This document shows, one piece after another, positions 36,846 to 46,743 of a stretch of DNA of 64,000 nucleotides. The position numbers and the translations under genes were made by a program. Position 1 is the first letter of the stretch, and every line of letters begins with the position of its first letter. Source of the DNA: an uncultured Brachyspira sp. (lineage in GTDB: Bacteria > Spirochaetota > Brachyspiria > Brachyspirales > Brachyspiraceae); NCBI RefSeq assembly GCF_944393015.1, contig NZ_CALXYQ010000006.1, positions 1 to 64,000 on the forward strand, in the 5' to 3' direction. The notes below the pieces were generated by a model, which was not told the origin of the DNA, made no database searches, and saw nothing but the letters and a program-made list of their open reading frames with translations.

Positions 36846-36914
36846 TAATTTTTGAATGGGGAAATATTTATTTATTAATTATTTCCCTATTTTTTAATTA
36901 TACTGGAGGGTGAT

Positions 36915-37772
36915 ATTATCAATAATTTATTTGGAATATATGAAAAAGCTTTGGAAAAAAATACTTCTTGGCATCAGAAATTATTAGATGCTAAAGAATT
37001 AGGTTTTGATTTTGTTGAAATATCAATAGACGAAACAGATGAAAGGCTTGCCAGATTAGATTGGACTAAAGATGAAAGGGAATCATTAGTAAAATCTATA
37101 TTTGAAACTGGTATAAAAATACCTACTATGTGCTTTAGCGGACATAGAAGATTTCCTATGGGAAGTAAAAATTCTGATACTAGAAAGAAAGCTATGGAGC
37201 TTATGGAGAAAGCCATTATATTTGCAAGTGATATAGGAATAAGAATAATACAATTAGCTGGTTATGATGTTTATTATGAAAAAGGAGATGAAGAAACAAA
37301 GCAACTATTCATAGATGGATTAAAAAAATCTCTTGAAATGGCTGCTAAATATCAGGTAATGCTTTCTATAGAAATTATGGATACACATTTTTTAAACTCT
37401 ATAACTAAGTTTTTAGAATATGATAAAATTTGCAATAGTCCTTGGCTTACAGTCTATCCTGATTTAGGCAATTTAACAGCTTGGGGAAATGATGTTGAAG
37501 ATGAAATAAGAAAGGGAATTCATAAAATTACTGCCATACATATTAAAGATACTATAGCTCCTAAAGAAGGTTGTGAAGGAAAATTTAAAGAAGTTCCTTT
37601 TGGAGAAGGATGTGTTGATTTTGTGAAATGTTTTAAATTATTAAAAGAACTTAATTATAATGGAACTTTTATGATAGAGATGTGGTCTGAAAAATCAGAT
37701 AACCCTAAAGAATATGTGATGAAAGAAAAAAAATGGGTATTAGAAAAGATGAAAGAGGGAGGATTTTATTAA
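36915..37772 (+). CDS. ulaE: L-xylulose-5-phosphate 3-epimerase UlaE, apparent non-ATG start
   Basis: The enzyme converts L-xylulose 5-phosphate to L-ribulose 5-phosphate. The TIM-barrel family features are clear (PTMCFSGHRRFPMGS; SIEIMDTHFLNSI; GEGCVDFVKCF; MIEMWSE). The first conventional start is TTG 36951, but the frame is open upstream and encodes NNLFGIYEKAL, the expected UlaE N-terminus (GIYEKAL). In that stretch there is no ATG, GTG or TTG. GGAGG (36905-36909) is followed after 5 bases by ATT (36915) and after 8 by ATC (36918). Starting at ATT gives 285 residues, against 284 in E. coli; TTG would give 273. A single-base change of ATG to ATC is the main alternative. Confidence 0.88.
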   Translation: MINNLFGIYEKALEKNTSWHQKLLDAKELGFDFVEISIDETDERLARLDWTKDERESLVKSIFETGIKIPTMCFSGHRRFPMGSKNSDTRKKAMELMEKAIIFASDIGIRIIQLAGYDVYYEKGDEETKQLFIDGLKKSLEMAAKYQVMLSIEIMDTHFLNSITKFLEYDKICNSPWLTVYPDLGNLTAWGNDVEDEIRKGIHKITAIHIKDTIAPKEGCEGKFKEVPFGEGCVDFVKCFKLLKELNYNGTFMIEMWSEKSDNPKEYVMKEKKWVLEKMKEGGFY

Positions 37773-45666: not shown

Positions 45667-46641
45667 CTATTTTTTATATCTTTTTCTATATTCAGCAGGA
45701 GATATGGAGAATATTTGTTTGAATCGTTTATGAAAGTAGCTGTTATTTTCATATCCTATATTACTTATAATGTCTGAAATAGACAGATTAGTTTCTATTA
45801 AAAGTTTTGATGCTAGCTCAAATTTTTTATTTTGAAGCATTTCTTTAAAAGTCTGACCGAATTTAGATTTTATAAATCTGCTTATCTGAAATATATTGCT
45901 GTTTAATTGCTTAGCCAATTCAGATAATTTGGCTGTTTTGTATTCTGTTTCTATATAATTTGTTATATATTTTGATATTGTGTATTCATCATCTAATACA
46001 AAATTTTTTTCTAAAAGAAATGTATAATTGTATAGATACATAAATAATATGCCAATAAGTTTTTTATTAATATTAACTTCATCTAAAGATCTGTTTGTTA
46101 TTATAGAGTATATTAAGTTTTCAAGTATATTTTCTATTGGAAGTATTCCAAATGTATTAAATAGTAAAAATTGTCTTTTGGTATTATCACTTTTAGATAA
46201 ATTTATTATAAAATCTTTTATATAGTTATTTTCTTCTAACATAGATAATACATCATTGAAAAAATCTTTTTTTATTATAAAATTTATAGCAACATCATTT
46301 TTATTGCAGGCTTTTATTCTATGGGAGATATTAAAATTTAAAAATAGCAGATCCCCTTTATTTAAAGATATTTCTTCATTATCTATTACATGTATAATAT
46401 TTCCTTTAAGGACATAAATAACTTCTATATATGTATGATTGTGTTCCGGTATATCTATGAATCTTGTATGCGGTCTTATTGTAATTAAATTCCCTTTTTT
46501 TAAAAATTTATTTACATCCACACATATAAAATCATTATCATCAGTATACAACTGCTTCTTAAAACTTTTTTTTCCAGATAAAATTTCACGTTCCTCTTCA
46601 GTTATATTATCAAAGAAATTTAAAATTTTACTATTTATAAT
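45667..46641 (-). CDS. AraC-family regulator of the rhamnose-type locus, apparent non-ATG start
   Basis: The N-terminal half is a sugar-binding cupin (ITIRPHTRFIDIPEHNHTYIEV; LNKGDLLFLN). The C-terminal half has two AraC helix-turn-helices (LSELAKQLNSNIFQISRFIK; ISDIISNIGYENNSYFHKRF). The first conventional start is TTG 46551, but the frame is open for 30 more codons encoding LNFFDNITEEEREILSG, a conserved opening of this subgroup. GGAGG (46651-46647) precedes ATT (46641, 5 bases) and ATA (46638, 8 bases), just after a stop at 46644. The same layout is seen at ulaE. About 324 residues from ATT. It probably activates the ABC operon and the divergent rha genes. Confidence 0.85.
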   Translation of the reverse strand: MINSKILNFFDNITEEEREILSGKKSFKKQLYTDDNDFICVDVNKFLKKGNLITIRPHTRFIDIPEHNHTYIEVIYVLKGNIIHVIDNEEISLNKGDLLFLNFNISHRIKACNKNDVAINFIIKKDFFNDVLSMLEENNYIKDFIINLSKSDNTKRQFLLFNTFGILPIENILENLIYSIITNRSLDEVNINKKLIGILFMYLYNYTFLLEKNFVLDDEYTISKYITNYIETEYKTAKLSELAKQLNSNIFQISRFIKSKFGQTFKEMLQNKKFELASKLLIETNLSISDIISNIGYENNSYFHKRFKQIFSISPAEYRKRYKK

Positions 46642-46684
46642 TTATACCTCCAAATTATCATGATATTATTATAACATAATTAAA

Positions 46685-46743
46685 TTCAAATTTCATTAAT
46701 AAATCAAAAAAAAATACTGTTAGTTTCAAATTTAGTCCTTATG
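46685..46743. promoter_or_regulatory. Candidate AraC-type operator: direct repeats 50 bp apart
   Basis: TTCAAATTT occurs at 46685-46693 and again at 46735-46743 in the divergent gap between the regulator and rhaB. The spacing is close to five helical turns. AraC proteins often bind direct repeats, but the motif is short and AT-rich. Confidence 0.3.

Follow-up and report, generated by a model that had tools for sequence, protein, structure and literature searches.

Proposed AUA and AUC translation starts of an araC-type regulator gene and of ulaE in a Brachyspira ascorbate/rhamnose locus

Two genes of one sugar locus

Brachyspira are gut spirochaetes. The window, by which we mean the whole 64,000-nucleotide stretch analysed here, comes from an uncultured Brachyspira sp. 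and contains a locus of ascorbate (ula) and rhamnose (rha) genes to which both araC and ulaE belong. By its DNA-binding domain, araC encodes an AraC/XylS transcription regulator, the product of which passes the curated cut-offs of PF12833 (HTH_18; 68.0 vs 33.6 bits) and PF00165 (42.1 vs 26.6 bits). The gene is divergent from those for rhamnulokinase, rhamnose isomerase and an aldolase, and in this position the AraC-type protein of Brachyspira is reminiscent of RhaS/RhaR. Because the scores for the NCBIfam equivalogs lie far under their cut-offs (RhaS 54.5 vs 288 bits, RhaR 54.8 vs 525 bits), we assign it to neither. The ulaE product is UlaE, the L-ribulose-5-phosphate 3-epimerase, with 415.4 bits against the curated TIGR00542 cut-off of 272.15 bits.

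The minus-strand frame of araC, which stops at 45667, is open upstream of its first canonical start codon, TTG 46551, as far as ATT 46641-46639. Immediately 5' of this ATT stands TAA 46644-46642, so that a start farther upstream in the same frame is excluded. No in-frame ATG, GTG or TTG occurs between this TAA and TTG 46551, and ATT 46641 and ATA 46638 are the only start candidates near GGAGG (46651-46647), from which they are separated by 5 and 8 bases, respectively. This arrangement, already pointed out in a sequence-only reading of the window, can be read directly. From 46641 the codons are ATT ATA AAT AGT AAA ATT TTA AAT TTC TTT GAT AAT ATA ACT GAA GAG GAA CGT GAA ATT TTA TCT GGA, and TTG 46551 is 29 codons past the ATA. 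The layout of ulaE matches: after GGAGG (36905-36909) come GTGAT, ATT 36915, ATC 36918 and AAT, and the first NTG is TTG 36951. All features are collected in Table 1.

Table 1. Coordinates of the araC and ulaE features within the window.
Feature	Position	Strand	Remarks
ulaE CDS, proposed AUC start	36918..37772	+	284 aa, 11 aa more than the TTG version; TIGR00542 415 bits, from residue 4
ATC, likeliest ulaE start codon	36918..36920	+	ATH in 7/7 orthologs: ATC x4, ATA x1, ATT x2
ATT preceding the ulaE ATC	36915..36917	+	ATT in 6/7 orthologs, ACT in G005
GGAGG Shine-Dalgarno of ulaE	36905..36909	+	in 7/7 orthologs
Hairpin then U run, between ulaB and ulaE	36846..36900	+	z -4.44; comparable hairpin in 6/7 orthologs
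araC-type regulator CDS, proposed AUA start	45667..46638	-	323 aa, 29 aa more than the TTG version; open frame, HTH_18 68 bits, conserved N-terminus
ATA, likeliest araC start codon	46636..46638	-	ATA in 3/3 araC orthologs, GGAGG-N8
ATT, candidate start of the sequence-only reading	46639..46641	-	ATT in 2/3 orthologs, ACC in the other
GGAGG Shine-Dalgarno of araC	46647..46651	-	in 3/3 orthologs
TAA 5' of araC	46642..46644	-	also in G024
TTG, first canonical araC start codon, judged not the start	46549..46551	-	CTG in G025
Promoter-like site with TGTTATAAT, 17-nt spacer	46668..46696	-	10/12 matches; box in all three species

The TGTTATAAT box at 46676-46668 would place the start of the araC transcript near 46660 and give a leader of ~20 nt, the folding of which is weak. 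Around araC, 6 promoter-like sites were found against 4.2 expected from shuffles, which is not above chance. The hairpin 5' of ulaE resembles an internal terminator or attenuator; with its U run, it means that ulaE expression may be limited twice.

Conservation of the upstream codons

Orthologs of araC were detected in 3 of 26 Brachyspira genomes, so that the comparison is one of three close species, while ulaE has orthologs in 7 of the 26. A search of 392 Spirochaetota genomes with araC returned 3 matches, all within the genus and none outside it; the phage collection gave no match.

In both genes, the codons upstream of the first TTG behave like protein-coding sequence. Between araC and its G025 ortholog, codons 3-30 differ by 5 synonymous changes and 1 non-synonymous change, and against G024 by 1 synonymous and 0 non-synonymous changes. 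For codons 3-12 of ulaE, the synonymous/non-synonymous counts against six species are 0/0, 1/0, 1/0, 3/0, 2/1 and 1/0. Additionally, the match to the L-ribulose-5-phosphate 3-epimerase profile begins at residue 4 of the extended ulaE protein. An AraC protein from a Ligilactobacillus salivarius plasmid (27% identity overall) aligns gap-free with araC over its first 20 residues, starting with the first residue, and two Erysipelotrichaceae ulaE genes (L018, L019) carry ATG ATG at the two codon positions. The conserved N-terminus that had been claimed upstream of TTG 46551 is borne out by these comparisons, and, judged from codon changes and alignments, we consider that the upstream stretch of araC and ulaE is translated. 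Standard ORF finding cuts such proteins, with a loss of 29 residues in araC and 11 in ulaE.

At the conserved N-terminus itself, ATG, GTG and TTG are absent from all three araC and all seven ulaE orthologs. The second of the two codons is ATH in every one of the ten (araC ATA in three; ulaE ATC in four, ATA in one and ATT in two). The first codon is ATT in eight, being ACC in G025 araC and ACT in G005 ulaE. GGAGG precedes the pair in 10/10, at N8 from the second codon in nine orthologs and at N6 in one. In ulaE of G003, the order is GGAGG-TAA-ATT-ATT, so that GGAGG is 3 nt away from the first ATT and 6 nt away from the second. An in-frame stop lies directly upstream in the araC genes of G000 and G024 and in ulaE of G003.

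Choice of the initiation codon

Our main reading, to which we give a probability of about 0.7, is that both araC and ulaE are real genes and that their translation would begin at the second codon, AUA 46638 in araC and AUC 36918 in ulaE. Across the orthologs, initiation is probably at AUA in araC and at AUC, AUA or AUU in ulaE and not at the first-codon AUU, because the second ATH alone is available in all ten. The most economical description is an ordinary SD-ATT-ATG arrangement in which the G has been replaced by H. The interchange of ATC, ATA and ATT at this position is also expected of an internal isoleucine codon.

Initiation at the first codon, AUU 46641 in araC and AUU 36915 in ulaE, with the second isoleucine as residue 2, appears unlikely, yet it has several points in its favour. 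A 5-base spacing after GGAGG is common in this genome, ATT is kept in 8/10 orthologs, and the annotated GTG of the L. salivarius gene aligns with ATT 46641, with Ile as residue 2. This last alignment is the point that speaks against the second codon; it is weakened by the 27% identity, and a start can shift by one codon between distant homologues. Against the first codon stand ACC in G025 araC, ACT in G005 ulaE and the 3-nt spacing in G003 ulaE, all three of which would need another start. The sequence-only reading had raised AUU initiation; of this, a non-ATG start at ATH, preceded by a strong Shine-Dalgarno, remains the best reading, while the codon is probably not AUU, since it is the second ATH that is kept in 10/10. 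The two TTG codons, 46551 and 36951, are canonical and are what a standard ORF finder reports. If they were the true starts, the upstream similarity would be untranslated, which we hold to be very improbable. In the co-oriented rows compared for TTG 46551 (G024 and G025), G025 has CTG, and TTG 36951 is replaced by TTA in ulaE of G017 and G005, so neither TTG is a conserved start. Moreover, the upstream codon changes are mostly synonymous, the upstream part aligns with homologues from other phyla, and the scan finds no Shine-Dalgarno of four or more matching bases ahead of TTG 36951. The earlier judgement that TTG 46551 is not the start is supported by conserved codons upstream of a TTG that is itself not conserved.

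A start of ulaE still farther upstream, at an in-frame CTG or TTG overlapping GGAGG, with a similar cryptic start in araC, seems slightly less probable again. Six of the seven ulaE orthologs do have an in-frame TTG-GAG (four) or CTG-GAG (two), but a TAA intervenes in G003 ulaE and in the araC genes of G000 and G024, and no Shine-Dalgarno is apparent by eye 5' of that TTG or CTG. Hardly credible, finally, is a sequencing or assembly error, or an ATG lost in a dying gene. The genome from which the window comes is a draft assembly in 111 contigs, but the same layout occurs in every ortholog found, where the frames are intact and most of the changes synonymous. A chance error had already been called less likely, and ten of ten orthologs without ATG, GTG or TTG there agree.

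For initiation at the second codon, the following course can be proposed. Strong Shine-Dalgarno pairing with GGAGG would hold the 30S subunit at the site, and the first two bases of AUH would pair with the initiator tRNA. Initiation would hence be weak and is expected to be disfavoured by IF3; use of fMet-tRNA, low yield and IF3 sensitivity are what we infer from established knowledge, and weak, IF3-sensitive initiation at the Brachyspira AUH sites is likely. A weak non-ATG start is a rare, known means of keeping a protein scarce and is missed by gene-finding programs. Here it would keep the regulator and the epimerase scarce, which may be its regulatory purpose.

To our knowledge, conserved AUH starts are rarely documented beyond a few genes, among them infC, pcnB and ccpN. 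With no canonical start, an ATH codon at Shine-Dalgarno spacing and a strong Shine-Dalgarno, araC and ulaE would belong to this type. The closest precedents are S. aureus ccpN and cvfC1, E. coli infC and pcnB, and Streptomyces sigR. In S. aureus, AUA is described as the start of ccpN, infC and citZ, and AUU as that of cvfC1; these starts were mapped by Ribo-Ret and examined in reporter assays, in which ccpN, citZ and cvfC1 gave ~10% of AUG expression in minimal medium (PMC13009471). Extended Shine-Dalgarno sequences are reported there at the ccpN, cvfC1 and infC sites, and ccpN, a gene conserved to B. subtilis, encodes a transcription regulator in carbon metabolism (PMC13009471). Like this set (PMC13009471), Brachyspira araC and ulaE would have an AUH start preceded by a strong or extended Shine-Dalgarno, but the S. 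aureus genes come from another phylum and other gene families, the Brachyspira starts are predicted from sequence, and Brachyspira infC has ATG. According to citations in PMC13009471 and PMC5472188, synthesis from E. coli infC and pcnB is limited by their AUU start, which is likewise an AUH start, as we propose for araC and ulaE; neither E. coli gene is a sugar regulator, and IF3 autocontrol has been demonstrated for E. coli infC, whereas in Brachyspira IF3 sensitivity is only inferred. Streptomyces sigR, which begins with GTC behind an extensive RBS and is repressed by IF3 (PMC5472188), resembles araC as a regulator gene held low by a non-canonical start with a strong RBS, the low yield of araC being a prediction. 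It differs in that the codon is GUC and not AUH, and in that it concerns sigma/anti-sigma stoichiometry and not a sugar locus. Among the literature matches listed, as far as titles and the beginnings of abstracts tell, there were no reports of non-AUG starts in Brachyspira, the single match on ribosome profiling in this genus concerned chloramphenicol, and those on non-canonical starts provided precedents only and nothing on these araC and ulaE genes. Two proposed AUH starts in one spirochaete locus, written ATA, ATC or ATT and never ATG, offer a natural test of whether selection acts on weak initiation itself.

infC is the classic AUH-start gene. Intended as a positive control, it turned out negative: every one of the 25 Brachyspira genomes that have a match (L060-L084) shows ATG as the infC start, so that no AUH-based IF3 circuit is visible in the genus. 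Judged by this codon, start-codon autoregulation of IF3 seems to be absent in Brachyspira, unlike in E. coli (AUU) or S. aureus (AUA). One may speculate, although we regard this as quite doubtful, that the AUH starts of araC and ulaE act together as a translational gate for a single accessory ascorbate/rhamnose locus, set by the initiation-fidelity state of the cell. If it were true, the growth-linked level of IF3 or of initiator tRNA would set the regulator and a central pathway enzyme together, and an IF3-type switch would exist, with codons drifting among AUA, AUC and AUU and never AUG, in a genus without an AUH infC.

Occurrence in the genome

Two sites in the window match the full layout GGAGG-N5-ATT-ATH-AAT, against a mean of 0.02 in 100 dinucleotide-preserving shuffles, none of which reaches 2. 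The layout had been put forward as common to two independent genes, and both parts hold: araC and ulaE lie 9.7 kb apart on opposite strands and encode unrelated proteins. The looser motif GGAGG-N7..9-ATH-AAT gives 27 matches in the whole 3.44 Mb genome vs 19 for the reversed control, and is as such close to chance. Only two of the 27, araC and ulaE, stand at the head of a long coding frame that has no NTG in frame upstream.

For further cases, a codon-usage gene caller was combined with a Shine-Dalgarno scan over 1,259,318 bases (37% of the genome, 1,000 genes), and all 837 GGAGG sites in this sample were tested directly for AUH starts. Beyond araC and ulaE, no convincing AUH start was found among them; the count is a lower bound, since AUH genes with a weak Shine-Dalgarno or with an NTG within a few codons are missed by the scan. 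The sequence-only reading had staked its claim on further such genes and on sites free of ATG in related strains. The relatives indeed have no ATG, while the lack of another convincing case in 37% of the genome counts against it.

Where ordinary genes of this genome have GGAGG, its distance to the start is 4 to 10 nt (range examined 3-11), and ATT is the commonest triplet ahead of ordinary starts (53/332). GGAGG precedes 37 of 918 ordinary starts in the sample, vs ten of ten araC and ulaE orthologs. This, together with araC and ulaE being the only cases among 837 sites, makes a strong Shine-Dalgarno with AUH a special pairing and not a habit of the genome.

Several candidates were rejected. 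C4:58379 (GGAGG-ATT-ATA-AAC) forms one arm of a hairpin resembling a terminator, while the gene begins at an ATG ten codons further; ATG behind an AAGGA-type Shine-Dalgarno is seen in 17 of the 24 rows listed, and two of the 24 (L159 and L172) were read out of frame. C11:48611 (ATA-AAT) belongs to a truncated gene with 198 open codons vs 368-449 in 10 relatives. At C10 28.5-28.9 kb, an A run that follows a normal ATG shifts the frame. The C6:41017 frame runs antisense within the substrate-binding protein gene, and C1:169366 (AAGGAG, ATT), located in a run of broken frames, was not counted as a case.

Three of these regions of G000 merit a remark of their own. The C11 gene (L134:8081-8674) is cut short in its 5' part and is probably a pseudogene in this strain. 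On C10 (L031:8660-8910), a lipoprotein-like gene has the A run right after its ATG, which puts the signal peptide out of frame, either by phase variation or by assembly error. The broken-frame run on C1 (~167.5-170.4 kb; L028:7500-10400), one part of which starts with AAGGAG...ATT without ATG, resembles a decaying transporter cluster.
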